From Croceivirga thetidis (GTDB taxonomy: Bacteria > Bacteroidota > Bacteroidia > Flavobacteriales > Flavobacteriaceae): a stretch of 64,000 nt of DNA. The position numbers were made by a program, and so were the translations under genes. The DNA lies in assembly GCF_012272815.1 (NCBI RefSeq), contig NZ_JAAWWL010000002.1:216280-280279 (forward strand), read 5' to 3'. Of the stretch, positions 8,268 through 54,193 are shown piece by piece; within the stretch, counting starts at the first letter, position 1, and each line of letters opens with the position of its first letter. The notes under the pieces are model-generated. The model made no database searches and had not been told where the DNA came from. It worked only from the letters and a program-made list of their open reading frames with translations.

Positions 8268-8270
8268 TTT

Positions 8271-9703: not shown

Positions 9704-9773
9704 TATTTAATGGAATTGATTTTTTTTGGTTTGGTCTAATTTGAAGGAATAACTCTTTTACTTTGCCAATGCT

Positions 9774-10934: not shown

Positions 10935-10956
10935 AGATTAATAGTTAGGATTTGGA

Positions 10957-12153: not shown

Positions 12154-12167
12154 TATTTTTTTTTCAT

Positions 12168-13169: not shown

Positions 13170-13181
13170 TGGCTAATAGGT

Positions 13182-17690: not shown

Positions 17691-19622
17691 ATGATTGAAC
17701 GTATATTTCTTGGACGAGAGTGGAAAGTTGTACCAAAGGGAATAGTATTGGCCCTTGACATGACCATCATCTCTGTCACTTTTTTTCTTGCTTATTTAAT
17801 TAGATTTAATCTCAGTCTGGATTTTGATGTTCAAATGCTTTGGAAACAATTACCATTGGTTTGGGTAATGTTTTTAATTTCTTTTTTGATTATTGGATCT
17901 TACAATAGTTTGATAAGGCATACAGGTATAAAGGATGTTTATTCCATTTTTAATGCTGTATGTTTAGCGAGTATCGGATTAATTGTCGGCGTTATTTTGA
18001 ATAAGTATGCCCAATTCTTTCCAAACTTTACGATACCCTTATCAATCATTATTATTAATAGCATGTTAGCTTTTATTGGTCTAACAGTTGTGCGTTATTT
18101 TTTAAAAACCGTCTACGACCATCTTATAAAGAGCAACGGTAAAACTTCAAAACATGTTTTGATTTATGGAGCAGGCGAATCTGGCATAATCACTTATCAA
18201 ACCCTTGCTAATCATTCTAAAATGCAAGTTCGGGTTGTTGGTTTTGTTGATAATGACATTCGTAAAGTTGGAAAATTAATCAACGGCGTTCGTGTTTTCG
18301 ACAAAAAGGTCCTGACGGAAGAGTTTATTTTATTAAACGGAATTTCAGAAGTAATTTTCTGTATTCAGAACATTGCCCCGAAGAAGTTGAGAGATCGCGT
18401 TAACGAACTCGTAGACCTTCCTGTTAAGGTGAAAATAGTTCCTCCTGTTGAGGATTGGATAAACGGAGAATTAAAAGTTTCTCAGATCAAAAATGTTCAG
18501 ATTGAAGATTTACTCGATCGTCCTCCGATACAAATAAAAAATAGTAAGGTAGCCAATGATTTCGATGGCCAAGTAATTATGGTAACAGGGGCCGCTGGTT
18601 CCATCGGTAGTGAGCTTGTTAGACAAATATCAAGGTACACTTACAAGAATTTAATTTTAATTGACCAAGCGGAATCCGCATTATACGACTTACAGCAAGA
18701 GCTGAAACAATCGGGGCGGCATAATTTCGTGCCAATAGTTGCAGATATTAGAGATAAAAGCAACATGAGAGCTCTTATTCAGGAATATAAACCAACAAGA
18801 TTTTTTCATGCAGCAGCTTACAAGCATGTTCCACTAATGGAAGCAAATCCGTATGAAGCGATTAAAATCAATGTAGTTGGGACTAAGAATATCGTTGATT
18901 TGAGTATTGAATTTGGGGTGGAAAAATTCGTTTTTGTTTCAACAGATAAAGCCGTAAATCCTACAAATGTGATGGGATGTACAAAACGAATAGCTGAAAT
19001 GTACATAAGCTGCCGTCAGCAAGAGGGTAAGACCAAGTTTATTACTACAAGATTTGGAAATGTTCTTGGTTCAAATGGCTCGGTTATTCCATTATTTCGC
19101 AAGCAAATTGAAAAAGGGGGCCCTTTAACAGTTACCCATAAAGATATTACCCGATACTTTATGACAATTCCTGAGGCTTCTCAATTGGTCTTAGAAGCTG
19201 GTGCTATGGGTAATGGAGGTGAAATCTTCATTTTTGATATGGGTGAATCAGTTAAAATATTTGATTTGGCTAAAAATATGATCAGGTTATCTGGGCTAAG
19301 GTATCCCGAGGATATCGATATTAAAATAACAGGATTAAGACCAGGCGAAAAGTTGTACGAAGAATTACTTGCAAATGGCGAGAATACTTTACCCACTTAC
19401 AACGAGAAAATCATGATTAGTAAAGTTAGAGAGATTGATTATGCCCTAATTAGGTCGAGTATTGATGAACTTTGCGTATCAAATCTTTTTTATCGGGATA
19501 AAATTATCCCAATGATGAAAAAGATTGTGCCGGAATATATTTCTAACAACTCCCAATTTAGTAGATTTGATAAATCTCCTACAAAAGAACCAGTTGATAA
19601 AAAAGAGGAGATAGCTAACTAA
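17691..19622 (+). CDS. Membrane-bound UDP-HexNAc 4,6-dehydratase (PglF/WbpM/CapD family)
   Basis: Removes water from UDP-GlcNAc to give the UDP-4-keto-6-deoxy sugar used by sugar aminotransferases. At 643 residues it is the long form: four N-terminal membrane helices (about residues 15-120), a first Rossmann-like CoA-binding-type domain with HVLIYGAGESG near 160, and a C-terminal SDR domain with VTGAAGSIGSELVRQ near 300. The active site has STDKAVNPTNVMGCTKRIAE, where Met takes the place of the catalytic Tyr as in WbpM/PglF; Cys in MGCTK (commonly small Ala/Ser) is a minor oddity. It opens the plus-strand export module and probably provides the substrate of the DegT aminotransferase at 2698-3915. 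Confidence 0.9.
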   Translation: MIERIFLGREWKVVPKGIVLALDMTIISVTFFLAYLIRFNLSLDFDVQMLWKQLPLVWVMFLISFLIIGSYNSLIRHTGIKDVYSIFNAVCLASIGLIVGVILNKYAQFFPNFTIPLSIIIINSMLAFIGLTVVRYFLKTVYDHLIKSNGKTSKHVLIYGAGESGIITYQTLANHSKMQVRVVGFVDNDIRKVGKLINGVRVFDKKVLTEEFILLNGISEVIFCIQNIAPKKLRDRVNELVDLPVKVKIVPPVEDWINGELKVSQIKNVQIEDLLDRPPIQIKNSKVANDFDGQVIMVTGAAGSIGSELVRQISRYTYKNLILIDQAESALYDLQQELKQSGRHNFVPIVADIRDKSNMRALIQEYKPTRFFHAAAYKHVPLMEANPYEAIKINVVGTKNIVDLSIEFGVEKFVFVSTDKAVNPTNVMGCTKRIAEMYISCRQQEGKTKFITTRFGNVLGSNGSVIPLFRKQIEKGGPLTVTHKDITRYFMTIPEASQLVLEAGAMGNGGEIFIFDMGESVKIFDLAKNMIRLSGLRYPEDIDIKITGLRPGEKLYEELLANGENTLPTYNEKIMISKVREIDYALIRSSIDELCVSNLFYRDKIIPMMKKIVPEYISNNSQFSRFDKSPTKEPVDKKEEIAN

Positions 19623-19643: not shown

Positions 19644-20405
19644 ATGAGAAATTCTTTAAAGTTTTTAATGGCCTTAAATTTATTAATAACAGGGTTTTCG
19701 TGCACTTCTACCAAGGAACTGATTTATTTTGAAGACGCTGAAGAATTTGAAACATTAGTAAACGAGAACACCTTTGAATCTAAATTCAAGGTTGACGATT
19801 TAGTCGCCATCCATATTTCATCTTTAAATCCTGAGGCCAGTGCTCCATTTAATCTATTTAGAGGGGCAGAGGAAGGTGGCATCGCACCAGAGCAGGTGGA
19901 TTATCTGATTGATAAAAATGGAGAAATCGATTTTCCTGTAATAGGTAAAATTAAAATTGCTGGATTAACTCCAAGTGGAACTCGTGCTCTTTTGACAGAA
20001 AGACTTGCCGATTATCTTAAAGATCCCATTATCAATATTAGAATCAGAAATTTTACCGTAACAGTTTTAGGTGCGGTCAATAGACCTGGTGCGTATGCAG
20101 TCAATGGAGAGTAGATAACTATTATGGAAGCATTAGGACTTGCTGGGGACATCACTATCAAAGGAAGACGAGATAATGTAATGGTAGTACGTGATTTTGA
20201 TGGAACTAAGGTTTACAATAGAATAAATCTCAACACCAAAGAGGCACTTAAATCTCCTGTATATTATTTAACTCAGAATGATGTTGTTATTGTTGAGCCC
20301 AATAAATCTGGTAAAACCGAATCATCACTTGACCAAAGAGCAACCATAGTAGTTTCCATTTTATCCGTTGTTGTAACATCGGCTGTGGTAATCCTAACCA
20401 GATAA
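19644..20405 (+). pseudogene. Wza-like polysaccharide export lipoprotein interrupted by an in-frame TAG
   Basis: Two pieces in the same frame are separated only by TAG at 20112-20114. The first (156 residues) has a lipoprotein signal with Cys in TGFSCTSTKE, the poly-export motif DLVAIHISSLNPEASAPFNL and most of the first beta-grasp domain. The second piece continues ITIMEALGLAGDITIKG through the SLBB domain to a C-terminal membrane helix (ATIVVSILSVVVTSAVVIL). The intact paralogue at 39295-40101 aligns across the break (EKISILEALARAGDITI), so the ancestral gene was about 253 codons with a sense codon (perhaps Lys or Gln) at the TAG. An ATG at 20124 with GGAGAG at 20106-20111 could allow reinitiation. 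It may be a pseudogene, a split gene, a suppressed stop or a sequencing error. Confidence 0.85.
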
Positions 20406-20430: not shown

Positions 20431-22812
20431 ATGGAAAGGGGAGATTTAGACTTAAATGAAATTGTCAATAGCTACCTCAAGCATTGGAAATGGTTTGTAT
20501 TGAGTATTTGTGCTGCCTTTTTGATGGCATTTTTGTATTTAAGGTATTCTGTGCCCAAATTCGAAGTTGCAGCCAAAATCCAAATTATTGAAGATAAAAG
20601 TTCGGGTTCTGAGCTCAGCGTACTTCAAGAACTAGATGTTTTAAGTGGTCGTGAGGCTACAAAAATTACTGATGAAGTTGAGTTATTGAAATCTCGGGAC
20701 AACTTTATTAAAGTAGTCAGGAAACTGAAACTTAATATTGAGTATAATTTATTGGGCAATGTTAGAAGTGGTGATTTATACAACAATCATCCATTTGAGA
20801 TTTTAATGTCATCAGATACTGTTCCTATTAGTTCGTCCCATGATTTTTTTGTGAGAATTCTTAATGAGAATGAATTCATGTATTCATTAAAAAGGGACCA
20901 AGAAGGAAAAAAGATGACCTTCGGAACCGAAATAAACGCAGATGAAATTGGAGACATTACTTTGGTTCCAAACCTGGAGAAAATCTCAAGGTACAAGAAT
21001 AAAATACTCGGTATTTCCATCAAAGAAGAATCTTCTGTAGCTGATAGTTATAGGGGTAGGGTTTCCGTAGTTCCTAAAGATAAAATATCTACGGTATTGA
21101 ATATCTCGATGAAAGATGCTGTACCCGAACGGGCCATTGATGTCATTAATTTACTCATCGAACAGAATAATGAAAATGAAGTAGAGTCTAAAAAGGCCAT
21201 TGCAGACAGAACAAGTAGGTTTATAGAAGATAGGATTGCAGATATTTATTCAAACCTATCCACCATTGATCAAGAATCAGAAACTTTTAAAGAGAGTAGG
21301 GGAATTGCAGATTTGGGTTCTCAATCAAATGTAAATTTTCAACAAAGCGCTGCAAGTGAACAAGAGCTCAGGAGTGCAAATATTCAATTGAATATTGCCG
21401 AATCCATGCAAAGTCTGATAAATCAACAAGACGGATTCGAAGTAATTCCGAATGTTGGCTTGTCAGATCCTAGTATTGATAATGCTGCAACCCGCTATAA
21501 TGAATTAGTTGCTCAAAGAAATCGATTATTGGAAAGTTCAAACGAAAAAAACCCAATAATTGTGAATCTTGATCAGCAATTGTCAACTCTAAAGCGGACA
21601 ATGCAATCAAGTTTAAATAATGTTACGAACAATCTTAACCTCAGGGTCAATAGCTTAAGTAAACAACTTTCTCAAATCAATTCACGAATATATGCTGCAC
21701 CAGGTAACGAGACAGCATTGAGGGATATTTCAAGAAAACAACAGACTACTGAGTCTTTATATCTCTATTTATTGCAAAAAAGTGAAGAAGCCCAAATTGC
21801 ATTCGCATCTGCAGCTCCAAAGTCTAAGATTATAAATAGAGCGCACTTGGTTAGTAATACACCGGTTGAACCAAAGAACAAGATTATCTACTTAGCAGCC
21901 ATTTTAGCTGGACTTATGATTCCATTTGCAATTATTTATCTAAATGGCCTTCTTGACAATAAGGTTAGCAATATGGTTACATTACAGAAGTATCTTGGTA
22001 ATAATTTTGTTGTCTTAGCCGAAGTACCGAAGGTGAATTCCAAAGAAGATATTTTAGTTAAAAAGGGAGATCGTTCAATCTTATCTGAATCACTTAGAAT
22101 TCTAAGAACAAATCTTGATTATATTCTTAAATCAAGAGGAAAATCTTCAAATGGTAAAGTGACCCTCGTAACATCTAGTGTTTCGGGTGAAGGAAAAACA
22201 TTTATAAGTTCTAATCTCTCAATGACTTTAGCTTCGGCTGGTAAAAAGGTACTTCTATTAGGTGCTGATATCCGAAATCCTAAGGTATTTGAGTTTTTTA
22301 AGTCTGAAGGAGTCAACAATCGTGCTCAGATTAGTTATGGATTGACTGATTATCTATTTCAGGAGGATATAAACTTGAAAGATTTAATTCACAATATCGA
22401 AGAAAACGAAATAGGCATCGATGTTATTTACTCCGGTAAAATTCCTCCGAATCCTTCCGAGCTTCTTTTAAGTGAGCGTTTAGAGGGTTTATTTGAAAAT
22501 CTGCGAGCGAAATATGATTATATAATTGTCGATTCTGCGCCTATTTTAGCAGTAACCGATTCACTTTTGCTTGAGAAGTATACCGATCAAGTAATCTATG
22601 TTACAAAGTCTAAGAGTACAGAAAGAAAAGTACTTGAATTTCCTTTGAACCTGCACAAAGAAGGGAAGATTAGAAACCTTTCATTCGTAGTCAATTCTGT
22701 AAAAGAAACCAATCTTGGTTATGGTGGGAAGTATGGTTATGGATATGGTCAGACTCAAAAGAAATGGTGGCAATTTGACATACCTTTTTTAAAGTCTAAA
22801 AAGGCCTCATAA
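20431..22812 (+). CDS. Wzc-type chain-length regulator and bacterial tyrosine autokinase (locus 1)
   Basis: Inner-membrane co-polymerase controlling polysaccharide chain length and export through cycles of tyrosine phosphorylation. Layout of 793 residues: first membrane helix near residues 20-35, periplasmic Wzz domain with coiled coil (about 250-430), second helix near 485-505, then the cytoplasmic BY-kinase domain. The kinase shows Walker A in SSVSGEGKTF (about 580-590), a Walker A' of LLLGADIRNP, and Walker B in YIIVDSAPIL. The C-terminus has a Tyr cluster (GYGGKYGYGYG) as autophosphorylation sites. It sits 25 bases after the interrupted wza-like gene and ends convergent, overlapping the phosphatase gene by six bases. 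Confidence 0.92.
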   Translation: MERGDLDLNEIVNSYLKHWKWFVLSICAAFLMAFLYLRYSVPKFEVAAKIQIIEDKSSGSELSVLQELDVLSGREATKITDEVELLKSRDNFIKVVRKLKLNIEYNLLGNVRSGDLYNNHPFEILMSSDTVPISSSHDFFVRILNENEFMYSLKRDQEGKKMTFGTEINADEIGDITLVPNLEKISRYKNKILGISIKEESSVADSYRGRVSVVPKDKISTVLNISMKDAVPERAIDVINLLIEQNNENEVESKKAIADRTSRFIEDRIADIYSNLSTIDQESETFKESRGIADLGSQSNVNFQQSAASEQELRSANIQLNIAESMQSLINQQDGFEVIPNVGLSDPSIDNAATRYNELVAQRNRLLESSNEKNPIIVNLDQQLSTLKRTMQSSLNNVTNNLNLRVNSLSKQLSQINSRIYAAPGNETALRDISRKQQTTESLYLYLLQKSEEAQIAFASAAPKSKIINRAHLVSNTPVEPKNKIIYLAAILAGLMIPFAIIYLNGLLDNKVSNMVTLQKYLGNNFVVLAEVPKVNSKEDILVKKGDRSILSESLRILRTNLDYILKSRGKSSNGKVTLVTSSVSGEGKTFISSNLSMTLASAGKKVLLLGADIRNPKVFEFFKSEGVNNRAQISYGLTDYLFQEDINLKDLIHNIEENEIGIDVIYSGKIPPNPSELLLSERLEGLFENLRAKYDYIIVDSAPILAVTDSLLLEKYTDQVIYVTKSKSTERKVLEFPLNLHKEGKIRNLSFVVNSVKETNLGYGGKYGYGYGQTQKKWWQFDIPFLKSKKAS

Positions 22813-23532
22813 TTTATTTGAAATCAAATTTTGAACTTTTGATATTGTATTTGGCCTTAGGGTGATTCGCTTGATATGTTTAATTTGACTTAGAAAATGA
22901 ACATCACTACCTATGAAATCATACATATCTTTTTCCAATAGTTTCAATGCGGTTTTTCGTACATCCTTGCCATAATAATCACCCAGAGAAAGTATATTAA
23001 GTTGAAACTTTATCCCAAGGTTTTTGAAGTATTCGAACTTCGAAAAATCTTTGTGATAGTAGCTATACCTTTCAGGATGTGCCAAGACAGGAAACAGTCT
23101 TTTACTTTGAATTTGGTTTACTGCAATTTCAAAATTGATACTTGGTTGTAAAAAGGACATTTCGACCAGTAGGTGATCTTTCCCCAAAGGCATAACTTCA
23201 TTTTTTGACAAAATGTTTTCGAAATTATCATCAATCATATGTTCTGCCGCTGGAACAATATTAACGTTTAAACCTTCTTTTTTAATACCAGCAAGTAGTC
23301 GATTATAAGCCTTATTTATAATGTCAGGAGTATTCTCATAATAGTTGTTCATGATATGCGGAGTGCATATAAAACTATTAACACCAATCTCTCTAAATTC
23401 CTTTATAATTTCAATGGATTCCTCAACATTTTTTGCTCCATCATCAATACCAGGAAGTATATGATTATGTATGTCAACAAAGCCTTCAAGGTAATCCACC
23501 AAGAAATCTTTTTTAGTAAAAAAACTAAACAT
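22807..23532 (-). CDS. PHP-domain protein-tyrosine phosphatase (CpsB/YwqE type)
   Basis: Metal-dependent phosphatase likely to remove phosphate from the Tyr cluster of the neighbouring Wzc kinase. PHP signatures: FVDIHNHILPGIDDG near the N-terminus, CTPHIMNNYY, VEMSFLQPS, LAHPERYSYY and FIGSDVH near the C-terminus, which together provide the His/Asp metal ligands. An upstream in-frame TTG at 23553 exists, but the ATG at 23532 starts the protein at the normal distance from the PHP motif (241 residues). The gene is convergent with the kinase gene and lies 48 bases downstream of mnmE on the same strand. Confidence 0.9.
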   Translation of the reverse strand: MFSFFTKKDFLVDYLEGFVDIHNHILPGIDDGAKNVEESIEIIKEFREIGVNSFICTPHIMNNYYENTPDIINKAYNRLLAGIKKEGLNVNIVPAAEHMIDDNFENILSKNEVMPLGKDHLLVEMSFLQPSINFEIAVNQIQSKRLFPVLAHPERYSYYHKDFSKFEYFKNLGIKFQLNILSLGDYYGKDVRKTALKLLEKDMYDFIGSDVHFLSQIKHIKRITLRPNTISKVQNLISNKL

Positions 23533-23580
23533 GTCCCACCAATAAGGCTGCAAATATACAACGCTAGGGTATTTAGGAAT

Positions 23581-38556: not shown

Positions 38557-39294
38557 ATGGATATTCAAGCCATACTTGAAAGCACCCCTCAACGAACGAG
38601 AATAAAATCTCATGACCGCTTTCAACATCTTATTTCCATTGACGATTGGTTAGACCTCTGGTCTACTGTAAGTATTGACGAAATTAAAATCGTTCGACCG
38701 CAATACCGAGTGTTGAAGCGTGTGTTTGATTTTGTTTTCTCAACTTTAGTAATTGTTTTAGTGCTTTCTTGGCTTACACCACTTTTATTAATTCTAATTA
38801 AAGCAGAGTCAAAAGGGCCCCTAATTTTCAAACAGCTTAGACATGGGCATTTAGGGGGTGAGTTTTATTGCTATAAATTTAGGTCTATGCGTGTCAATAC
38901 GCTTAGTGATAAGCAAATGGCGAAAAAAGGAGATCCAAGAATAACAAAAGTTGGCCGTTTTATCAGAAAAACAAATATTGATGAACTGCCCCAATTTCTT
39001 AATGTATTTTTGGGCCAAATGAGTGTAGTTGGACCCAGACCCCACATGGTCACGCAAATGAACTCTTTTGAGGACTTAATAGAATATTATTCACTACGTC
39101 ACTACGTTAAGCCCGGTGTCACAGGTTTGGCCCAGGTCATGGGTTATCGAGGAGAGATTAAAACCATCAATGATATAAGAAATAGAATCAGGATGGATGT
39201 ATTTTATTTCACTAAATGGACTTTTGGTCTTGACCTTAAAATTATTTGGCTTACGCTCAAAAATATTGTTGAATACAAAAACATGGGATATTAG
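38557..39294 (+). CDS. Initiating phosphoglycosyl transferase of locus 2 (WcaJ C-terminal type)
   Basis: A 245-residue sugar-1-phosphate transferase: an unusual soluble N-terminal stretch of ~50 residues (STPQRTRIKSHDRFQHLISIDDW), one hydrophobic helix near 57-82, KAESKGPLIFKQLRHG, YKFRSMR near 106-112, catalytic Asp142-Glu143 in TNIDELPQ, and VVGPRPHM. It is shorter than full WcaJ, having lost the first four helices and the CoA-binding domain. It starts the locus 2 operon; the wza-like ATG follows its stop codon directly. The 238-base spacer upstream ends in an unstructured A/C-rich leader. Confidence 0.9.
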   Translation: MDIQAILESTPQRTRIKSHDRFQHLISIDDWLDLWSTVSIDEIKIVRPQYRVLKRVFDFVFSTLVIVLVLSWLTPLLLILIKAESKGPLIFKQLRHGHLGGEFYCYKFRSMRVNTLSDKQMAKKGDPRITKVGRFIRKTNIDELPQFLNVFLGQMSVVGPRPHMVTQMNSFEDLIEYYSLRHYVKPGVTGLAQVMGYRGEIKTINDIRNRIRMDVFYFTKWTFGLDLKIIWLTLKNIVEYKNMGY

Positions 39295-40101
39295 ATGCAG
39301 GCATTAGCAAAGGAAGTGTATCAGAACAATTGGCCAAAATTCATCATCGTTTTAACAATTTTCATTTTCACATCATGTGGGAATTTGAAGGATGCGACTT
39401 ACTTTAACGATGTTCCCCAAAACTATGAGTTTAATGCTCCTGTAGGGGTATCGGAGATAAAAGCCAACGATTTATTAGGAATCAGTGTCAATAGTATTAA
39501 TCCTGAAGCATCAGAAATGTTCAATCTTTCGCTTCAGTCTACTTTCGAAACTACTACTGCCTCAGGTCAATTATCAAAACTTTCTGGCTATTTGGTCGAC
39601 ACCGAGGGTTACCTGAAAATACCAGTTTTAGGAAGCATTAAGGTGGCGGGAATGACCAAGTTGGAACTGGAAGATTTTCTTGAAAAAGAATTGGTACGCA
39701 GGGAACTTTTAGTTGAACCTTCCGTAAAAATTCGAAATCTGAATTTTAAGGTTTCTGTTTTGGGCGAAGTCAACAGTCCAACAGTGATAACGGTTCCAAA
39801 TGAAAAGATTTCAATATTAGAGGCTTTGGCCAGAGCAGGTGATATTACAATAGACGGTAATAAAAAAGATGTGCTCTTGATGCGGGAACTTGAAAAGGAT
39901 GGCTACGGTAAATTTATGGTTCGAATCGATTTGACTTCAGATGATATTTTAGAATCACCTTATTATTTTCTTAGGTCAAATGATGTTATATACGTAAAAC
40001 CTACCAAGAATAAAGTAGATGCCAATACTGCAGCGATTCGTTGGATTCCTGTAATTTTAAGTTCACTTTCATTGGCAATCTTAGTAATAACAACGAGATA
40101 G
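39295..40101 (+). CDS. Wza-like outer-membrane polysaccharide export lipoprotein (locus 2)
   Basis: Intact paralogue of the interrupted gene at 19644-20405. After ~25 residues comes the lipoprotein signal (FIFTSCGNLKD), then the poly-export domain with NDLLGISVNSINPEASEMFNL, the SLBB domain (FKVSVLGEVNSPTVITVPNEKISILEALARAGDI broken here to its key parts), and a C-terminal membrane helix (IPVILSSLSLAILVI). The family forms the export channel of capsule or exopolysaccharide. Four bases separate it from the wzc gene. At 268 residues it is of the short Bacteroidota form without the long Wza alpha-barrel. Confidence 0.9.
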   Translation: MQALAKEVYQNNWPKFIIVLTIFIFTSCGNLKDATYFNDVPQNYEFNAPVGVSEIKANDLLGISVNSINPEASEMFNLSLQSTFETTTASGQLSKLSGYLVDTEGYLKIPVLGSIKVAGMTKLELEDFLEKELVRRELLVEPSVKIRNLNFKVSVLGEVNSPTVITVPNEKISILEALARAGDITIDGNKKDVLLMRELEKDGYGKFMVRIDLTSDDILESPYYFLRSNDVIYVKPTKNKVDANTAAIRWIPVILSSLSLAILVITTR

Positions 40102-40105
40102 ATTT

Positions 40106-42391
40106 ATGAGTAATTCGAAATCTTCTGAATTGGCAGAGTTGAAAGACTTTATGTCGACGGTATGGTCGTATTGGCCCTTATTTGTTATTGTTCTTTCCAC
40201 TTCCATATTATTTTCAGCGATTTACATTAGGTCCCAATTACCTCAATATAAAATCACTTCGAGCATCCTTATCAACGATATGAAAAAGGGTGCGGCAAAC
40301 GCTCGAATGTCCGATGTTATCAATCCATTTCAGAACAAGCAGCTTGTTGATAATGAAATCGAAATCTTAAGATCAAGGGATATTTTGAGTAAAGTTGTTG
40401 ATGATATGAATTTATCCGTTGGGATAATGGTTGATACTAGCCCAAAGGACAAGCCAGTTTTTGCAGAATCATTCTCAATTGAATATAAGGAAATTGATCC
40501 CTTGGTTTGGGAAGATATTGATGAACCAAACAAGTATTACTTTCAAATAGAAAATGGCCAGGTTCTCCTCGAAGGAAAGAGATATGACCTTAATACTTGG
40601 ATTCCGGTTAAGGAAACAGAAGTCAAATTCGTTCCTAAAAAAGAAGATCTCAGAATTGGCGAAAATTTCTACTTCGAACTATATGATAGGGAAGCTGTAG
40701 TCGAAGACCTGATAGATGGATTGGAAGTTGAATCGACTAGTAAGTTGTCAACTGTAGCTAAACTTGAACTGGAGCACTCTGTACCAGCAATGGGTGAAGC
40801 CATAATGGATAGGGTAATTAAATTTTATTACCAACGTGCCTCAGATAACAAAATGAAAATTGCGGAAACAACTATGAATTACATTCAACAAAGAATGGAT
40901 AGTGTTTCAAGTTTGATTGCAAATCTTAATAAGGAAATAGAAGAGTTAAGAAACACCGAGGGTTTAATTGACTTAAGTGAGCAGGGTAAATTGTATTTAA
41001 GTGATGTTGGCGCATTTGATCGTCAACGTTCCGGTCTTCAAACACAACTCGCTGTATTAAATCAGGTTGAAGGATATATTGATAATGGTAGTGGCAGCGT
41101 ACCTTCAAGCGTTGGGGTAAATGACCCAAACCTTAATATGCTTCTAGAGAAGTTATACAATTCACAGATTGAATATGAACGTCTCAAAAAGACTACTGGA
41201 GCAAATAATCCTTTGTTGAAATCTGTGAAAAGGGATATTGATAAATTAAAACCCAGTATTATCGAAAATGTTCAAAGTCAACGTAAAAACCTTACGGCGG
41301 CCTTGGGCAATGTTAATTACAACATTGGAAAATTTAGTGGTTCCTTAAAAGAATTACCAGCAAAAGAAAGACAATTGGTTGAAATGACACGTCGCAAAGA
41401 AGTTGAAACCAATTTGTTTACCTATTTGCAAAACCAAAGAGAAGAAATTACACTTTCAAGTGTTCCAGATTTTTATGAGGCCAATATTGTGGAACACCCA
41501 AACCATTCTTCCATTCCTACTAGTCCAAAAAAATCAATCATTTTTTTGATTGCTCTAATTCTAGGATTTGGAGCATGTATGGTTTATGTAATTAAAAAAG
41601 AATTCCTTAATAATAAGATACTTTATCGCAGAGATATCGAGAAGTATACCAAATTGCCAGTAATGGCTGAGATTCCTTTTATTAAAATTGCCAAAACCAG
41701 TAGGATTAGAAGTAAGGATAGGCTACTTCTAGATAATACTTTTAGGGGTTTGGGAATTCAACTCGGATTGTACAAGAATGAAGCAAAATGCAGAACCTTA
41801 ATGGTGACCTCTTCAATACCAGGAGAAGGGAAGAGTTTTGTTTCTGAAAACCTTGCGAGAACACTTTCCAAATTAGGAAAGAAGGTGGTATTAATTGATT
41901 CTGACTTTTTGAAGCCCAGAATTTCTCGAAATCATAGATTGGAAAACGATTTAGGACTTTTAGATTTCTTCAAAGGCATTGAAGAGTTAAATCAAGTAAT
42001 TTATCTGGTCTACGGTAATGATAATCTTAAAATTGTCAGCGCTGGTAAATATTTTAAAAATTATGCAAGTGTTTTAGATGCCCAAAAATTTGAGTACTTC
42101 TTAGAGCATTTAAAAAAGGATAATGATTTTGTAATAATTGATTCAGCCCCACTAAATATAATAACCGATTTCGGATTCTTTGCCCCTTATGTCGAAAGAA
42201 CCCTTTTAGTAGTTAGACACAATTATACCCCAGAAGCGGTATTAGAAAACATGGAAAGAACTGAAATTCATAAAAAGTTGGTGAATCCCAGCATTATTTT
42301 CAACTACGTTAAAAATTCAAGTGTGTTGCAAAAAGGGGCCAATTATGGGTATCAGTATTTCGGAAAAAACAAGTACGGGGTAAACGCCTAG
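40106..42391 (+). CDS. Wzc-type chain-length regulator and tyrosine autokinase (locus 2)
   Basis: A 761-residue inner-membrane co-polymerase with two membrane helices (about residues 20-38 and 475-495) around a periplasmic Wzz domain with coiled coil. The kinase domain has Walker A in SSIPGEGKSF near 568-578, a Walker A' VVLIDSDFLKP in which the usual Arg is Leu, and Walker B VIIDSAPL. The C-terminal tail NYGYQYFGKNKYG provides four tyrosines. It follows the wza-like gene directly and precedes the flippase by 21 bases. No phosphatase gene accompanies this locus, so the PHP phosphatase of locus 1 may serve both. Confidence 0.9.
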   Translation: MSNSKSSELAELKDFMSTVWSYWPLFVIVLSTSILFSAIYIRSQLPQYKITSSILINDMKKGAANARMSDVINPFQNKQLVDNEIEILRSRDILSKVVDDMNLSVGIMVDTSPKDKPVFAESFSIEYKEIDPLVWEDIDEPNKYYFQIENGQVLLEGKRYDLNTWIPVKETEVKFVPKKEDLRIGENFYFELYDREAVVEDLIDGLEVESTSKLSTVAKLELEHSVPAMGEAIMDRVIKFYYQRASDNKMKIAETTMNYIQQRMDSVSSLIANLNKEIEELRNTEGLIDLSEQGKLYLSDVGAFDRQRSGLQTQLAVLNQVEGYIDNGSGSVPSSVGVNDPNLNMLLEKLYNSQIEYERLKKTTGANNPLLKSVKRDIDKLKPSIIENVQSQRKNLTAALGNVNYNIGKFSGSLKELPAKERQLVEMTRRKEVETNLFTYLQNQREEITLSSVPDFYEANIVEHPNHSSIPTSPKKSIIFLIALILGFGACMVYVIKKEFLNNKILYRRDIEKYTKLPVMAEIPFIKIAKTSRIRSKDRLLLDNTFRGLGIQLGLYKNEAKCRTLMVTSSIPGEGKSFVSENLARTLSKLGKKVVLIDSDFLKPRISRNHRLENDLGLLDFFKGIEELNQVIYLVYGNDNLKIVSAGKYFKNYASVLDAQKFEYFLEHLKKDNDFVIIDSAPLNIITDFGFFAPYVERTLLVVRHNYTPEAVLENMERTEIHKKLVNPSIIFNYVKNSSVLQKGANYGYQYFGKNKYGVNA

Positions 42392-42412
42392 TTACTCCTT
42401 GATACTGTAGAA

Positions 42413-43816
42413 ATGATTAGAAAACTTTTCTCAAACATAGTTTTTAAGAATTTCTCTTTCCTGACGATTGGATCTGTTTTAAGTCAATTAATCAGTGTAT
42501 TTACTATTCTGAAGATAACCAGTGTTGTTTCTCCTGGGGATTATGGCCTATATACCTTTTTAATTTCTCAAGGTCTTTTGCTTGTAAAAGTGGGGAACTT
42601 GGGCAATACCAATATTGTGATTCGTTCCGTTGCTAGAAACGGAGATTTGGCTAAAGACTATTTGTCAAACACCAGCCTTCTTCGTCTTTTGGCAATCATT
42701 GCTTTAACAGGTTTTTATCTCGTTTACAATTCTTTTTTTGGAACCCTTAATGCTACTCAAGTAGGATTAATATTTCTATTCTCACTCTTCAACTGTTTTT
42801 CATACTTATTTGAATGGATTTTTACCGGTAATCAGAGGATATTTCCCATATCTGTTATTGGTCTTATTTACAGTGTTTTGTGGTTTGCAATAGTGTTTTT
42901 TGTTCCATTGGAAAAGATTTCGGCAACAACCTTATTTGCACTTTATGTAACAGCAAACTTTGTTAAATGTGCAATACTATATTTCACTTTGCTAACCAAT
43001 AATCTTATAAAGGGTTCTATAAAGAGGTTTAAAGAATCAGTAAGTACCCTCATGAGGGAAAGTTGGCCATATTTAGCCATGATTTTAGTTATGTTGCCAC
43101 TTACGAATTTGACACATAATTTTTTGGATCTCAATTCCACAAACGAAGAGATTGGTTATTTTAATTTGGCTCAGAGATTTATTGGCCCCGTAGGTTTGGT
43201 GATTTCCATGTTATTGACTGCTCTTTTTCCTAACCTTGCCGTAATGTGGGAAAAAAATCCTGACAAGTTTAGGTTCAATGTGGCAAAAGGTTTTCGACTC
43301 TACATGTTGGTTTCAGCCTTTGGCTGTTTTGCGTTTACCATCTTCTCTGAAGATTTAATTAAAGCTATTTTCAAAGAAGAGTATTATAGTGCGATCTTGG
43401 TTTGCCAGATTCAGGTTTGGTATGTCTTTCTCACTTCAGTCGATAGTTTTATCGGTACAATTTTGGGAGCTACGAATAAGGAAAAGTTGATACTTCGTTT
43501 TGGAATTGTCTACTTTTTTCTTTGCACGCCTTCTCTTTTTTTAGGGAGTCACTATGGAGCTCAAGGCCTTTCTTGGTCATATATAATTTCTTTTGGTGCC
43601 GGATTAATATATGCTTGGGTAATTTTTCAACGCAAGCTTCAACTCAAAGTGGAAAAAGAACTTGAAACAATTGCATTGGTCTTAGCTTTCGGACTTTTTG
43701 CTTATTTGTCAGCGGCATATTTCAATTTATGGCAAAAAGTTCTACTATTTGTAACAGTCTTGGGTATGTTCACATTTTACACTACCCGTATTTTCAAAAA
43801 ACTTAAAACCACATGA
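42413..43816 (+). CDS. Polysaccharide repeat-unit flippase (Wzx, locus 2)
   Basis: A 467-residue MOP-superfamily flippase with about 12-14 membrane helices; the N-terminal FLTIGSVLSQLISVFTILKITSVVSPGDYGLYTFL region is a hallmark of polysaccharide transporters, of which only short parts are quoted (GSVLSQL, SPGDYGLYTF). It probably translocates the lipid-linked repeat unit of locus 2. The end overlaps the start of the polymerase gene by four bases (ATGA). Confidence 0.88.
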   Translation: MIRKLFSNIVFKNFSFLTIGSVLSQLISVFTILKITSVVSPGDYGLYTFLISQGLLLVKVGNLGNTNIVIRSVARNGDLAKDYLSNTSLLRLLAIIALTGFYLVYNSFFGTLNATQVGLIFLFSLFNCFSYLFEWIFTGNQRIFPISVIGLIYSVLWFAIVFFVPLEKISATTLFALYVTANFVKCAILYFTLLTNNLIKGSIKRFKESVSTLMRESWPYLAMILVMLPLTNLTHNFLDLNSTNEEIGYFNLAQRFIGPVGLVISMLLTALFPNLAVMWEKNPDKFRFNVAKGFRLYMLVSAFGCFAFTIFSEDLIKAIFKEEYYSAILVCQIQVWYVFLTSVDSFIGTILGATNKEKLILRFGIVYFFLCTPSLFLGSHYGAQGLSWSYIISFGAGLIYAWVIFQRKLQLKVEKELETIALVLAFGLFAYLSAAYFNLWQKVLLFVTVLGMFTFYTTRIFKKLKTT

Positions 43817-45042
43817 GAAAGATTTTAAGTTTATTGGCTATCATTTTTGTTATGGCAGGTTCAATTCGATTTTTTGAACCAGCTTTTGTAGAAGATTCAA
43901 TATTAAACTATTTACAATATTTAAGTGTTCTTGTGGCGGTGACACTGTCGTTACCTCATATGATTAAACCACCCTTTGGATTTAATTTTCCTGTTTATTT
44001 ATTACTGATTGCCGTGATTTTTTCAATTTTCATGGCAGTGATTTTTTGGGATCAAGGTATCAAGGATTCTCTATTGGCAACATTCGAATATTTCATAATC
44101 TTCTTTTATTTCTTTTTGGTGTCTTCAACTATTTCGCTTCAAACATTGGAAAGAATCATTATCGGATTTGGAATTGTTTACATTTTACTATATGCCTTTC
44201 AGTTCGTCAGTGGATCCACCATTTATTTCGGAAAATCTTTATGGGGAGATGAATTCATTGAATCCAGAGGAGTGGTACGTATAATTTTTCCGGCTGGGGG
44301 TATATTGTATCTTTCCACGTTTCTTGCTTTTACAAAATCATTGACAGCCAAAGGCCTCAAGAAATGGCTCTGGATTTTATTTTCAATGTTTGGAATTCTA
44401 GCCCCTATTCTTCAGGTTACACGTCAGTTTATTGCTGGTGTCATTCTAATTTTAATATTACATATAATCATTAGTTTATCTCCTGTTAAGAAAACATTCT
44501 TGGCCTTAATGTTCTTGTTAGCGGGCCTACTTATTCTCAATACCGACTTACCATTAGTTAAAGGGCTTCAAGAACAAACTACCGACGATTTAGGACAGGG
44601 AAAGGATTATATTCGCGTACAAGCTGGAAAGTATTTTCTAACCGAGTTTTCTCCAAACACAACAACTGGAATATTTGGAAATGGAGTGGCGTATTCCGGA
44701 GTCTCCAATTATGGCTCGTTTGTAGATATGTTGCAATACACCCAAGAATACTTTTTGTCAGATCTAGGTATCATTACGGTTTACGTTCAATTTGGAGTCT
44801 TGGCTATTTTGTCTTTTATAGTCATTTGGATTTTAAGTATCACGGTTCCTTTAGATGCTAATTATTATTACCTGAAATATTATTTATGGCTGCTATTGAT
44901 AACCTCATTGACTTGGTATTCGGTCTATCATCACCATTACTTATTCTGTAATGTTCTGGTTTTGGCCATGTACCAAAGGGCAAGTAAAAATTTTAAGGAA
45001 GAAAAAATCAACGGTAAACTTGTTCTTGATGAAACTAAATGA
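43813..45042 (+). CDS. Polysaccharide polymerase-like membrane protein (Wzy, locus 2)
   Basis: A 409-residue hydrophobic protein with about ten helices and a periplasmic loop between residues ~250 and 310 (RVQAGKYFLTEFSPNTTTGIFG). There is little sequence identity to recognised Wzy proteins, as is normal; the call rests on topology, the pattern TRQFIAGVILILILH, and its place between wzx and the glycosyltransferases. It overlaps the flippase gene by four bases and the next gene by 14. Confidence 0.72.
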   Translation: MRKILSLLAIIFVMAGSIRFFEPAFVEDSILNYLQYLSVLVAVTLSLPHMIKPPFGFNFPVYLLLIAVIFSIFMAVIFWDQGIKDSLLATFEYFIIFFYFFLVSSTISLQTLERIIIGFGIVYILLYAFQFVSGSTIYFGKSLWGDEFIESRGVVRIIFPAGGILYLSTFLAFTKSLTAKGLKKWLWILFSMFGILAPILQVTRQFIAGVILILILHIIISLSPVKKTFLALMFLLAGLLILNTDLPLVKGLQEQTTDDLGQGKDYIRVQAGKYFLTEFSPNTTTGIFGNGVAYSGVSNYGSFVDMLQYTQEYFLSDLGIITVYVQFGVLAILSFIVIWILSITVPLDANYYYLKYYLWLLLITSLTWYSVYHHHYLFCNVLVLAMYQRASKNFKEEKINGKLVLDETK

Positions 45043-46117
45043 TAAAAAATCCTTGGTTTCAGTGGTCATGCCTGTTTACAACGCTGAGAATTATCTTGAA
45101 GAAGCTGTGGAAAGCATCTTAAATCAATCTTATGACAATTTCGAACTGTTGATTATTAATGATGGGTCAGTCGATAATTCAAAGTCGATTGCCGAATCTT
45201 TATGTAAAAAGGACAATAGGTTGATTTATCTTGAGAATAAGGATAATAAAGGTGTCGCGTTTACAAGAAATGTAGGTCTAAGAAATTCCAATGGAAATTT
45301 TATATGTTGGATGGATAGTGACGACACTTGCGATACTCAAAGATTGGAGAAGCAAGTTGACTTTCTATCCAGAAATCCGGAAATAGGTGCTGTTGGAACA
45401 CAAATTGAACGATTTAATCAGAACGGAAGTTTTGAACAAACTTCGTTGAATTCAAATCCGGAATACATAAAAGCATCTTTATTATTTAGACCGGCCGCCG
45501 TTCCTAATGCAACGATAATGCTGAGGAATGAATTGATTAAGAAATACAACCTTTCCTACAATGAACAACTGCGTATAGGTGAGGACTATGGTTTTGTAAC
45601 CCAATGCTCACATCATTTTCGTATTTCAATCTTGCCAGAAATTCTTTACAGCTATAGGATTGCTGAAAATAGTATCACAGAATTTTTTAATTCTAAATCC
45701 AAGGAGACTTTTGAACATGTAAAGAGAGTATATAAGTTTCAATTGAATAAAATTGGTTTAGAAGTTAGCGAAGATGAGCTTTTGACCCATGACGCTGTTT
45801 GCAATTCTGAGATGATTACCCGCTATGGGATCTATAAGCAAGGAGTTGATTTGATGTCAAGAATCGAAAATGCCAACAAAACATCGAACATTTATGACAA
45901 AGAACAATTAAAACAGGTTTTAAAAACTCAGTACGTTTTCTTTGGCAAAAAAGCAGGCCCGATTGGTTTACGAGCATTGATATTTTATACAAAATTGGGC
46001 TTCAAATTAGGTTATGGTAATGGTTTTAAAAATTGGTTGAAAATTGCGGTGCGTTGCTTATTAAAATATGAAGGATTTGAGTTTGAATGGCCTAGGGCCT
46101 TGGGATTTAAAACCTAA
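45029..46117 (+). CDS. Family 2 glycosyltransferase (locus 2)
   Basis: GT-A enzyme of 362 residues: VSVVMPVYNAENYLEEAVESIL, INDGSVDNS, AFTRNVGLRNSNG and WMDSDDTCD with the metal-binding aspartates. The frame is open further upstream, but the ATG at 45029 gives the usual short lead into the first beta strand and a 14-base overlap with the polymerase gene. Donor and acceptor unknown. Confidence 0.9.
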   Translation: MKLNDKKSLVSVVMPVYNAENYLEEAVESILNQSYDNFELLIINDGSVDNSKSIAESLCKKDNRLIYLENKDNKGVAFTRNVGLRNSNGNFICWMDSDDTCDTQRLEKQVDFLSRNPEIGAVGTQIERFNQNGSFEQTSLNSNPEYIKASLLFRPAAVPNATIMLRNELIKKYNLSYNEQLRIGEDYGFVTQCSHHFRISILPEILYSYRIAENSITEFFNSKSKETFEHVKRVYKFQLNKIGLEVSEDELLTHDAVCNSEMITRYGIYKQGVDLMSRIENANKTSNIYDKEQLKQVLKTQYVFFGKKAGPIGLRALIFYTKLGFKLGYGNGFKNWLKIAVRCLLKYEGFEFEWPRALGFKT

Positions 46118-46146
46118 TGTGAATAATATTGATTGGGACCACAAAT

Positions 46147-47181
46147 ATGAACACTAACCACAAACACATATTTACCTTCAAACTAACGGAAAATCAGCGT
46201 AGTCAATGGATGACGATGTTTGATGAATACAATAATGCCAAGTTTACGCAACATCCAGATTGGCCATTATTGTCTCAACCAAATCGTAAGGTAAATTACT
46301 TTATGTTATACGCTAATGATGGTAAACTACTTGCAGTTAGTACCATAGTTGAGAATCGGATTGTTGCCAATATTCTCTGGGGTCCATTATGCGATTCTTC
46401 TGAACTTTTTGTTGATAGTGTAGAAATAATAAGAAAATATTACAAAAGGAAAAACAGATTTGCCGTGCTCCGAGTAACGCATCCCAGCGTTATTTCATCA
46501 GTTACAGAATCATTGGAATATGCACTTTACAAAAGGGCTAGGTTCAAGCAATATATAAACGATAAAAACCTTTTTTCCATAGCGGTAAATTTAGAAAAGA
46601 GTAAGGATGAAATTCTTACTTCATTTAAAAATAGTAATAAACGCGGTGTAAAAAAAGGGATTAAAGAAGGCTTTGAAGTACGGGAGATAAATGACACTTC
46701 TGAGGTGAAAAAGTTTGCCTCCATATTCGATGAAATGATTGATGCACGAGGGATTGAAAATCAATTTTTAGATACGGCAAATTCGTTTTGTGAAATTTTG
46801 AATTCATTCCAAGAAAAAAAATATGGTAAAATACTGGCCATTTACAATAAGGACAATATAATGATGGGTGGTATTGTGATACTATTTAAAGATGACTTTG
46901 CCTATTATGATATTGGTGCTTCAAGTCCTGAGTTTCGAAAAAAACCGATTATGCACAGTTTGTTTTACAAGGCCATGCTGCTTTGCAAAGAAAGGGGTCA
47001 TAAGTGGTTTGACCTTGGCGGATATAGTCTGATTAGTAAAGATGGAGATCAAGTAACCAACATAAATAAGTTCAAAGAAGGTTTTGCTGGTGTACCCCAG
47101 ATTTATCCGAAAAGAATGTATTTCATACTAAATCCATGGATAAATGGACTTTATAGTCTGGTTATGAAGATTAAAGGGTGA
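46147..47181 (+). CDS. FemAB/GNAT-like aminoacyl- or acyltransferase in the polysaccharide operon
   Basis: A 344-residue protein with tandem GNAT-like domains as in FemX and the CelD/FemAB-related group found in exopolysaccharide loci: FTQHPDWPLL near the N-terminus, SFKNSNKRGVKKGIKEGFEVRE in the middle, and the C-terminal YDIGASSPEFRKKPIMHSLFYKAM with KWFDLGGY. FemAB-type enzymes add amino acids from aminoacyl-tRNA to peptidoglycan; versions in polysaccharide clusters may decorate the glycan with an amino acid or acyl group. ATG 46147 preferred over a TTG at 46129. Confidence 0.78.
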   Translation: MNTNHKHIFTFKLTENQRSQWMTMFDEYNNAKFTQHPDWPLLSQPNRKVNYFMLYANDGKLLAVSTIVENRIVANILWGPLCDSSELFVDSVEIIRKYYKRKNRFAVLRVTHPSVISSVTESLEYALYKRARFKQYINDKNLFSIAVNLEKSKDEILTSFKNSNKRGVKKGIKEGFEVREINDTSEVKKFASIFDEMIDARGIENQFLDTANSFCEILNSFQEKKYGKILAIYNKDNIMMGGIVILFKDDFAYYDIGASSPEFRKKPIMHSLFYKAMLLCKERGHKWFDLGGYSLISKDGDQVTNINKFKEGFAGVPQIYPKRMYFILNPWINGLYSLVMKIKG

Positions 47182-47218
47182 CCGATAAAACAAAGAATAG
47201 CCATTTTCTATTTAAAAT

Positions 47219-48298
47219 ATGAGCTCTAAAAAGAAGATATTGGTGGTCGCAAAGGATCAATTTGGTTACAGTACAACCTTGTTCAAACATTGCCAATACC
47301 TACAAAATAAATTTGATGTTTGCTATTTAGGTTGGGATTATCAGAGACCCGAAATTAAAATGACCGGGATTGAGATAAAACATGTATCAAGACTCGGGAA
47401 TAAGGTTAGAAGAACTTTGCGATTAATTAATGCAATTAAGGCAGAACTATCAAAGTGTCATTTGGCCTTTGGTACGTATTTTTTGGGAATTTCATTGTTG
47501 AAAATTCTCATATCGGGTAAAAGATATATTCTATACATAGACACACTTCACGTAGAACATGGAGGATTGAAAAAATTAGTAAGTGATTCCATCCTTCGAT
47601 TTGAACTTTTCTTTTTTTCTGAGGTAATGGTCATTAGTCGTGGAGTAGCCCAAAGAATTGGATTTAAAAATTATCAAATCTTACCCTTAGGGGGGGAGTC
47701 TTTCAAAATCAATTTTGAAAAACAAGATGAGAAATTGAGTTTACTGTACGTCGGAACACTCGGACGCAGAAAAATAATGGAGTGCGTTCAAGGTTATCAT
47801 AAGTTTCTAAGCTCAAAAAAGGACGAGCACAAATATATTTTTAGAATTGTCGGTGATTCTGATACCGGAGAACAGGAAGAAATTGACGCTTATATCCAAC
47901 AGAACAACTTAGGAAATAATATTAAAATGTACGGATACGTTCCGCAGCACGAGTTGTATACGATTTATGATAAATCAAATCTTGGAATATCTTTTATTCC
48001 CCTTTTTGAAGAGTATGACAAACAACCACCGACCAAAACATATGAATACTTGGTATCTGGATTGCCAATAATAGCAACTGCTACAACCGCCAACAAAGAA
48101 ATAGTTACCAAAAAGGATGGCCTGCTTATAAATGACAGTTCAGAAGATTTTTGTACTGCGCTAGAAAAAATGTGTGGTACCATCGATAGCTATAATTCCA
48201 ACGATATCCAAAAAAGAAATGAAAGGTATAAGTGGAAGTATGTAGTGGAGAGAAATTTAATTCCCGTTTTAACAGATACCAAAAAAGAATTGGCATGA
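47219..48298 (+). CDS. Family 4 glycosyltransferase (locus 2)
   Basis: A 359-residue GT4-like enzyme. N-terminal domain ILVVAKDQFGYSTTLFKHCQYL; C-terminal domain LLYVGTLGRRKIMECVQGY, FRIVGDSDTGEQEEI and the donor-binding KTYEYLVSGLPIIATATTANKEIV segment. The stop codon overlaps the start of the next glycosyltransferase (ATGA). Probably adds a sugar of the locus 2 repeat unit. Confidence 0.87.
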   Translation: MSSKKKILVVAKDQFGYSTTLFKHCQYLQNKFDVCYLGWDYQRPEIKMTGIEIKHVSRLGNKVRRTLRLINAIKAELSKCHLAFGTYFLGISLLKILISGKRYILYIDTLHVEHGGLKKLVSDSILRFELFFFSEVMVISRGVAQRIGFKNYQILPLGGESFKINFEKQDEKLSLLYVGTLGRRKIMECVQGYHKFLSSKKDEHKYIFRIVGDSDTGEQEEIDAYIQQNNLGNNIKMYGYVPQHELYTIYDKSNLGISFIPLFEEYDKQPPTKTYEYLVSGLPIIATATTANKEIVTKKDGLLINDSSEDFCTALEKMCGTIDSYNSNDIQKRNERYKWKYVVERNLIPVLTDTKKELA

Positions 48299-49419
48299 AT
48301 ATTCTTCATTTAGAACGGAAATTTCCAGGGTCGACGGAAACTTTTATCGTCAACCAGATTAACATGTTGCCTAAATACGAGCATTCCGTATTCACCATTG
48401 ACTTTATTGACGAGTTGAAGTCGATTGCTAAGGTATATCACCCTCCAAAAAAGAACATTCTTTCAGCAAAAGTAATGTTGGCAAACGAAGTTGCTTTTTT
48501 TAAAGAAAAGATCGAAGCTATAAACCCTGATATCATACATGGACATTTTATTACCGATGCCTGTGTGTTTAGGCCGGTCACAAAAAAGATGAATGTACCT
48601 AAAATCTGTTCATGTTATGGGTATGATGTTTCGGTAATACCAGTAAAGTTCAAACACTTCTATAAGTTCTTTTATAAACCAATAATTGCGGAATACGACC
48701 TTTTTTTGGCAATGACAGATGAGATGCAGAAGGATCTATTGGAAATGGGTTTTCCCGAAGAAAAAGTGACAGTTCATTATCATGGTGTAGATACCCAGAA
48801 ATTTAGTTTACCACGAATTTATAAGGCAAATATTTCAAAATTAAATATACTCACTGTTGCTAGTTTATTAGAGGTCAAAGGTCATGAGACGGTATTGAGA
48901 GCTTTGGCACATGCTAAACAAAATCAAGATGATTTTCAGTTTGAATATGATATTGTAGGTCAAGGAGCGCTAAAGGATTATTTGGTCAATCTTGCCAAAT
49001 CATTGGATATAAGCGATTTCGTTAGATTTCATGGAGCGATTAGTCATGGAGATGAGTTTATGCAACTCTTAAAAAAAGCAGATGTTTTCGCTCATCCTAG
49101 TGTTACAACAAAAGACAATGATAAAGAAGGGATTCCTGGTGCAATAGTAGAAGCAATGGCAAGCGGATTACCTGTAATTGCGACCGAACATGGTGGTATT
49201 CCGTATGTTGTGACTGATTCAAAAAATGGGTTCTTAATAAAGGAAAAGGATTACCAAACCATGGCTGGCCTATTTTACAAACTGTTCTCAGATCCCAATA
49301 TTAGAAGTACAATTGGTAAATCGGCCCAAGAGTATGCCCTGGAACATTTAGACCTATTGAAGAAATCAAAAGACCTCGAAAGAATTTACGAGTCTTTAAT
49401 AACCAAACAAAACCATTAA
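48295..49419 (+). CDS. Family 4 glycosyltransferase (locus 2)
   Basis: A 374-residue GT4 enzyme with a clear family pattern: FPGSTETFIVNQI at the N-terminus (a motif of colanic acid/WcaL-type transferases), VHYHGVDTQKF, LLEVKGHETVLRAL and the donor-site DVFAHPSVTTKDNDKEGIPGAIVEAMASG segment with its two glutamates. ATG 48295 was chosen over a longer open frame because it gives the canonical first strand MNILHL. It overlaps the upstream gene by four bases and is two bases from asnB. Confidence 0.9.
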   Translation: MNILHLERKFPGSTETFIVNQINMLPKYEHSVFTIDFIDELKSIAKVYHPPKKNILSAKVMLANEVAFFKEKIEAINPDIIHGHFITDACVFRPVTKKMNVPKICSCYGYDVSVIPVKFKHFYKFFYKPIIAEYDLFLAMTDEMQKDLLEMGFPEEKVTVHYHGVDTQKFSLPRIYKANISKLNILTVASLLEVKGHETVLRALAHAKQNQDDFQFEYDIVGQGALKDYLVNLAKSLDISDFVRFHGAISHGDEFMQLLKKADVFAHPSVTTKDNDKEGIPGAIVEAMASGLPVIATEHGGIPYVVTDSKNGFLIKEKDYQTMAGLFYKLFSDPNIRSTIGKSAQEYALEHLDLLKKSKDLERIYESLITKQNH

Positions 49420-49421
49420 AT

Positions 49422-51308: not shown

Positions 51309-51314
51309 TTCATA

Positions 51315-51803
51315 ATGTCAAGAAATTCTAAAAAAAAGAAGATTATTCTTATTTGTTCTGATGGCGGACATTTCGCCCAGATTAGGGAATTGGAGCCTTT
51401 GTTTACGAAATATGATTACCTAATCGTAACTGAAAAGTCAAAAGCGACAATACCAATGGCTGAACGCTACAACATGAAATTTTTAAAAAGCCGTCCAAAA
51501 GGTAGTGGACGAGGCTTAGGATTTTATTTTTCGGTATTGCAGAATCTATTTTTATCCATTGGAATTTTAATAGGGCACTACCCCAAAGTGGTAATAACTA
51601 CGGGCAGTCATACGGCCTTACCCATGTGTTTTCTGGCAAAATTAGTAGGTTCTAAAGTAGTTTGGATTTTATCTTTTGCACGAGTCAAATCAAAAGCATT
51701 TTCAGCAAATATTGCGTATCCAATCTGTAATCGATTTATAGTTCAATGGCCCGAAATGACAAAACACTATAAAAAGGCAATTCACCTAGGAGGAATTTAT
51801 TAA
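51315..51803 (+). CDS. PssD/Alg14-like glycosyltransferase membrane subunit
   Basis: A 162-residue N-terminal half of a split GT-B enzyme: KKKIILICSDGGHFAQIRELEPL and TTGSHTALPMCFLAKLVGSKVVW, matching the PssD/Cps14F/Alg14 family with a membrane-contacting hydrophobic patch (FYFSVLQNLFLSIGILIG). It recruits the catalytic partner, encoded 12 bases downstream. In Rhizobium and Streptococcus these pairs add beta-1,4-linked glucuronic acid or galactose, so UDP-glucuronate from ugd may be the donor. Confidence 0.87.
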   Translation: MSRNSKKKKIILICSDGGHFAQIRELEPLFTKYDYLIVTEKSKATIPMAERYNMKFLKSRPKGSGRGLGFYFSVLQNLFLSIGILIGHYPKVVITTGSHTALPMCFLAKLVGSKVVWILSFARVKSKAFSANIAYPICNRFIVQWPEMTKHYKKAIHLGGIY

Positions 51804-51815
51804 AGTAGATTTAGT

Positions 51816-52295
51816 ATGATATTCGTTACCCTTGGCACATTCCCAGTTCCGTTCACGAGGCCTTTAAAAGAGCTAGAAGACCTTTGTAGAAAAAAAATAA
51901 TCGACGAAAAAATCGTTGTACAATCAGGTCATACTGAATTCGTGTCAGAATTTATGGAGGTAAGTCCATTTATGCCTCCAGATAAAATCAATGAATTGAC
52001 CAAAGCTGCTAGTTTGATAATTACCCATGCAGGCACAGGTTCACTAATTAAAGCCGTGCGGTTAAAAAAGAAAGTAATTGCCATACCAAGACTATACAAG
52101 TTAGGAGAAAATGTAGATGATCACCAACTTGATATATTGGAAATTTTCACGGAAAAGGGATATGTTTTACCATGGCACGAAGATGATAAGTTAGAAAGGC
52201 TTTTGAACGATTTAAAATCGTTTCAACCAAACGAATATGTTTCGAAGAAACAAGTAATAATTGATTATTTAGAAAATTATATTAATTCCTTATAA
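51816..52295 (+). CDS. PssE/Alg13-like catalytic glycosyltransferase subunit
   Basis: A 159-residue C-terminal half of the split GT-B pair: IFVTLGTFPVPFTRPLKEL at the N-terminus and the donor-binding ITHAGTGSLIKAVRLKKKVIAIPRL in the middle, typical of PssE/Cps14G/Alg13. It works with the preceding PssD-like protein; neither is expected to act alone. Eight bases separate it from the Gfo/Idh gene. Confidence 0.88.
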   Translation: MIFVTLGTFPVPFTRPLKELEDLCRKKIIDEKIVVQSGHTEFVSEFMEVSPFMPPDKINELTKAASLIITHAGTGSLIKAVRLKKKVIAIPRLYKLGENVDDHQLDILEIFTEKGYVLPWHEDDKLERLLNDLKSFQPNEYVSKKQVIIDYLENYINSL

Positions 52296-52303
52296 GTATT
52301 AAG

Positions 52304-54179: not shown

Positions 54180-54193
54180 ACGATTTTCAAGGA

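Follow-up and report, generated by a model that had tools for sequence, protein, structure and literature searches.

An In-Frame Stop Codon Divides the OPX Gene of Locus 1

In the window, which is the whole stretch of 64,000 nucleotides of Croceivirga thetidis contig NZ_JAAWWL010000002.1 that was analyzed, the gene for the Wza-like export lipoprotein (OPX) of polysaccharide locus 1 contains an amber codon, which raises the question of whether this gene has been lost, is expressed as two polypeptides, is read through, or appears broken due to a sequencing error. The host is a marine member of the Flavobacteriaceae, and Croceivirga radicis from the same genus served for comparison. The coordinates of all features are collected in Table 1.

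The 5' piece of the gene comprises 156 codons from an ATG at position 19644 to the TAG and encodes a hydrophobic N-terminus, a lipobox-like Cys20, the Poly_export domain, and the first strands of an SLBB domain, whereby the N-terminus and Cys20 were recognized by reading only and the Cys is aligned in relatives. Downstream of the TAG, an in-frame ATG at 20124 opens an ORF of 93 codons without a signal peptide. The first-pass annotation had placed the TAG in frame with both halves and had described a similarity to the intact paralogue of locus 2 that runs through it. Both observations were confirmed, since the two pieces share one frame when compared with relatives and since residues 11–262 of the 268 residues of the paralogue, used as a query, align at 38% identity with one TAG inside. 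With the C. radicis orthologue as a query, the window gene is matched with E = 7.8e-122, and thus the OPX match across the stop is not due to chance.

Table 1. Positions of the features of loci 1 and 2 in the window and the data on which each assignment is based.
Feature	Position	Strand	Basis
Polysaccharide dehydratase (Polysacc_synt_2, CapD/WbpM-like), full length, upstream	17691..19622	+	77.5% identical to C. radicis, residues 1–627 of 643
5' piece of the locus 1 OPX gene	19644..20114	+	Poly_export, Pfam PF02563, E = 3.9e-15, residues 47–134; translation
GGAGAG, Shine-Dalgarno-like by sequence	20106..20111	+	Encodes conserved Gly-Glu (79/80 relatives)
In-frame TAG	20112..20114	+	Sense codon at this column in 80/80 relatives
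3' piece: remainder of SLBB and C-terminal hydrophobic helix	20115..20405	+	Sequence; predicted structure of C. radicis orthologue
Wzc-like co-polymerase and tyrosine kinase, full length	20431..22812	+	63.8% identical to C. radicis, 793 vs. 788 aa
CpsB/CapC-type phosphatase, full length	22807..23553	-	Comparison with relatives, Pfam
Locus 2 polysaccharide cluster, variable slot beside tRNA-Met	38557..55057	+	Pfam, comparison with C. radicis, genus search
Locus 2 OPX paralogue	39295..40101	+	Sole intact Poly_export gene detected in the genome

The dehydratase, the Wzc-like kinase, and the CpsB/CapC phosphatase of locus 1 are collinear with those of C. radicis. Locus 1 had been described as a complete assembly operon with a Wzc kinase, which holds for the adjoining export genes, as these are full length, while most of the remaining genes carry Pfam domains and were assigned by Pfam only. 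Stops that were flagged in the Wzc rows of six relatives were read as natural ends (residues 783–785 of 793). On the minus strand, positions 2115–14624 harbor a sugar cluster with Polysacc_synt_2, epimerase/Polysacc_synt_C, UDP-GlcNAc 2-epimerase, formyltransferase, Wzy-like, and Wzx-like genes, which we take to resemble an L-FucNAc-type set. When its 12 ORFs were compared to 56 kb of C. radicis, nine were unmatched and three matched weakly (24–36% identity), although the export genes are common to both. An ORF of 431 codons (15885–17180), which separates this cluster from the export genes, has no Pfam match at 1e-5 and no match in the compared C. radicis stretch.

The Stop Codon Is Found in None of the Relatives Examined

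Besides the window's own locus, 94 loci were fetched from relatives (L002–L095), of which 92 matched the 5' piece and two (L013 and L015) did not. All 92 matching loci show an uninterrupted open frame with the 3' piece in the same frame, and the gap between the matches of the two pieces is exactly one codon except in L012, L014, and L033, where the matches end slightly short. As L002/L047 and L006/L056 each represent the same record, at most 90 of these 92 loci are distinct. A contig scan yielded a sense codon at the column of the stop in 80 of 80 loci, whereby this and all further column counts out of 80 refer to the best 80 of 135 relatives and the 55 weaker ones lie outside the count. Among the relatives examined, the stop is peculiar to the window.

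The same picture was obtained at the family level, where a survey of 299 genomes with the C. radicis OPX as a query gave matches at E ≤ 1e-30 in 213. Stops were flagged in two of the 150 matches listed, and only the TAG of the window is truly internal. The other one, a TAA in genome G100, was rejected as a second case because it is the natural gene end, as judged from L087, whose contig is of equal length and whose open frame passes through the two pieces before ending normally. Within the genus, OPX matches occur in 10 of 11 genomes, including the window genome. Nine of the ten genus-mates have one uninterrupted OPX each, located at positions orthologous to locus 1, and no OPX match was found in the tenth (G001), a genome of 92% completeness in 300 contigs. 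Among the 11 genomes, only the window genome has two OPX matches, and these are also its only two Poly_export matches. As judged from these genomes, the OPX of locus 1 is the core OPX of the genus. A lineage-specific lesion set against intact orthologues is the pattern of a pseudogene, and the OPX is uninterrupted in all 92 matched loci and all nine matched genus-mates.

The Stop Lies Within the SLBB Domain and the Downstream Piece Shows No Detectable Decay

The column of the stop corresponds to residue 157 of the C. radicis orthologue, which is located in a loop between a strand (149–152) and a helix (160–167) of the predicted fold, a model of middling confidence (mean pLDDT 73, pTM 0.55). 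In the paralogue, Pfam assigns residues 152–234 to SLBB_2, and the stop column aligns in the first part of that stretch. A split at a domain boundary was therefore rejected, as Pfam, alignment, and predicted structure all place the stop inside SLBB. According to a section of PMC9603273, Poly_export is succeeded by one or more SLBB domains in every OPX protein. The N-terminal Poly_export domain (PF02563) is present in the 5' piece, and a Pfam match to SLBB was found in neither piece; the predicted stub of 156 residues does not conform to this rule.

Downstream of the stop, one of 42 conserved columns is changed, and 22 of the 80 relatives show as many changes or more. The dN between the window gene and C. 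radicis is 0.12 (dS 1.8), which is similar to the values of 0.10–0.14 for the intact pairs of C. radicis with five others. The synonymous sites are near or beyond saturation, with dS saturated in most pairs, and hence the stop is not datable by dN/dS. Changes affect 5 of 60 conserved columns in the 5' piece, a number that none of the 80 relatives reaches; since this does not differ significantly from the neighboring dehydratase and kinase genes (18 of 476; Fisher p 0.16), it was not taken as decay. Overall, neither the conserved columns, compared with 80 relatives, nor dN revealed any detectable decay in the downstream piece. This suggests that the stop is recent, or an error, or, as the least likely option, that the tail is still used.

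A Second, Sporadic OPX Locus Is Present in the Window Genome

Locus 2 is situated in a variable slot (36318–55820), which is flanked by a block common to C. radicis that ends at 36321 and, on the other side, by a tRNA-Met (55942–56016) followed by shared genes from 56144 onward. In C. radicis, the slot contains DUF294/CBS, PSCyt, and DUF1501-type genes beside a tRNA-Met. An ORF of 678 codons at 36318–38354 gave no Pfam match at 1e-5 and no match in the 10 genus-mates at E ≤ 1e-50. None of the 10 genus-mates showed the OPX kind of locus 2, which at E ≤ 1e-60 occurs in 10 of 299 family genomes from 10 genera, including the window genome. By this scattered distribution, locus 2 is to be regarded as an extra, sporadic locus.

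It could be that the second OPX made the first one dispensable. Nine further genomes carry the locus 2 kind; eight of them keep an uninterrupted locus 1 kind (63–71% identity to C. radicis), and in the ninth, G281, the best locus 1 match reaches 44%. The second OPX alone was therefore rejected as an explanation for the loss; redundancy may permit such a loss and, given eight genomes in which both kinds are intact, does not predict it. As to the suggestion in the first-pass annotation that locus 1 may borrow the OPX of locus 2, a part of PMC9603273 reports that three OPX proteins coexist in M. xanthus, each of them essential for its own polymer, a pattern that by analogy would speak against an easy exchange of OPX proteins. 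The core OPX is broken in the only genus member, among those examined, that has a second, sporadic OPX locus, which makes the window genome a clean natural setting for testing the interchangeability of OPX proteins between polysaccharide systems in Bacteroidota.

The Interruption Is Probably a Recent Loss of Function

Taken together, the data point to an ordinary and recent nonsense change by which the core OPX gene lost its function, an explanation that we consider probable. A single nonsense change in this lineage would have cut the lipoprotein gene within SLBB, so that translation would halt after 156 residues. The predicted product is a lipoprotein stub that keeps Poly_export and lacks the complete SLBB domain and the C-terminal helix, and the downstream piece would be a remnant too young to show decay. 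With such a stub, the polymer of locus 1 is most likely not exported normally. We infer that the change is natural or was acquired in culture and does not stem from base calling. Among the four options raised in the first-pass annotation, recent loss is the best supported, and a broken export lipoprotein in locus 1 agrees with a predicted stub that ends inside SLBB. The first observation itself was correct, and the event is mainly an ordinary one that involves no new mechanism. Against a loss stand the tail, which bears no sign of decay as independent proof of it, as well as the eight genomes mentioned above that keep the locus 1 kind intact beside the second OPX. A phase-variable or shuffled cassette was rejected because the DNA of the locus 1 OPX is present in a single copy, with no second copy or silent cassette in the window genome.

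The strongest competitor, although unlikely, is an error in the sequence or its consensus, in which case the cell would have a sense codon and make the full-length protein. This would fit with a stop that is unique among the relatives examined and with a downstream piece that is normally constrained and free of further lesions. However, the assembly of the 3.7 Mb genome is good (6 contigs, 99.99% complete), no long homopolymer was seen at the site by reading, and the neighboring export genes are full length. In addition, the frame is kept, which means that the lesion is of the substitution type and not an indel.

Arrangements that would preserve function were given little weight. It is improbable that the OPX consists of two polypeptides, a lipoprotein half and a restarted half with the C-terminal helix whose start is driven by A-3/A-6 and not by a Shine-Dalgarno (SD) sequence, or that the locus 1 kinase now works through the locus 2 OPX. 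Termination followed by reinitiation at the ATG at 20124, whereby both halves are made and assemble, appears slightly less probable still. This ATG is in frame, lies nine bases past the stop with an A at -3 and -6, and precedes a conserved tail. In PMC6847099, A-3 is given as a positive determinant in F. johnsoniae and A-6 is named in a section title, and one survey describes SD motifs as typically dispensable for (re)initiation in Bacteroidetes (excerpt of PMC6728339). Yet none of the 92 matched loci of relatives is split, so that a split conserved in relatives was not found; the cut falls inside SLBB; the restarted fragment would lack a signal peptide although its place of work is the periplasm; and a competing out-of-frame ATG at 20104 opens just 4 codons. 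The GGAGAG hexamer had been suggested as a restart signal. Its position was verified, as it abuts the TAG and is separated from the ATG by 12 bases, but this meaning did not stand, because the hexamer is ordinary coding sequence for a Gly-Glu that is conserved in 79 of 80 relatives, and because SD motifs are reported, in a part of PMC9976891, not to be recognized by the ribosomes of Bacteroidia or flavobacteria. Of the 80 relatives, 27 have Met at the column of the ATG, 50 have Leu, and 3 have Phe. An SD-like motif at most 20 bases upstream of it occurs in 43 of the 80 intact relatives, 9 of which also have the ATG. At gene starts, SD motifs were found in 0 of 42 window ORFs, the same as at a control position (0 of 42), and in 0 of 55 in the loci of seven relatives vs. 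7 of 55 at the control position, which is a depletion. Reinitiation is thus disfavored, since both GGAGAG and the ATG consist of coding letters of intact relatives and a signal peptide is missing.

Programmed readthrough or recoding of the TAG to give the full-length protein is highly improbable, even though the frame is open and conserved on both sides of the codon. Release factor 1 is intact (an ORF of 358 codons), a genome search for PylS gave no match, and TAG terminates 11 of the 49 mechanical window ORFs of at least 150 aa. None of the 34 tRNAs read has a CUA anticodon; these come from a non-exhaustive survey, as 150 of 315 candidates were scored in the RF00005 search and Ile-GAT and Ala-TGC tRNAs, expected in rRNA operons, are absent from its list. 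TAG recoding was rejected on these grounds, with neither a suppressor tRNA among the 34 read, nor PylS, nor a stop at this column in any of the relatives examined. A readthrough-stimulating RNA structure was likewise rejected, as the RNA around the stop folds with a z of 1.19 and an equal or better fold was obtained for 181 of 200 shuffles. Least probable of all is a 156-residue stub that functions as a minimal exporter, its path being completed by the locus 2 OPX or an unknown porin: short class 3 OPX proteins without an outer-membrane helix exist, but no OPX protein is without an SLBB domain (both from a section of PMC9603273), and Pfam finds none in the stub.

Comparison With Known Export Systems

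At the sequence level, matches to E. coli Wza (2J58) and to the class 3 protein WzaB of M. xanthus (9N9A) were obtained with the 5' piece as well as with the paralogue, and both proteins are also matched by the fold predicted for the C. radicis orthologue, with E of about 1e-12 and a TM-score by query length of 0.30–0.47. A further likeness to the Wza/OPX family is the Wzc-like kinase gene that adjoins the OPX gene of locus 1. In contrast to this family, the window frame stops within SLBB, so that the predicted product would lack the complete SLBB domain. Loss-of-function nonsense alleles, in the form of single premature stops, occur in capsule and EPS export genes. Like these alleles, the window gene has one premature stop while the remaining export set is apparently intact; unlike them, it belongs to a genome whose variable slot carries a second OPX locus.
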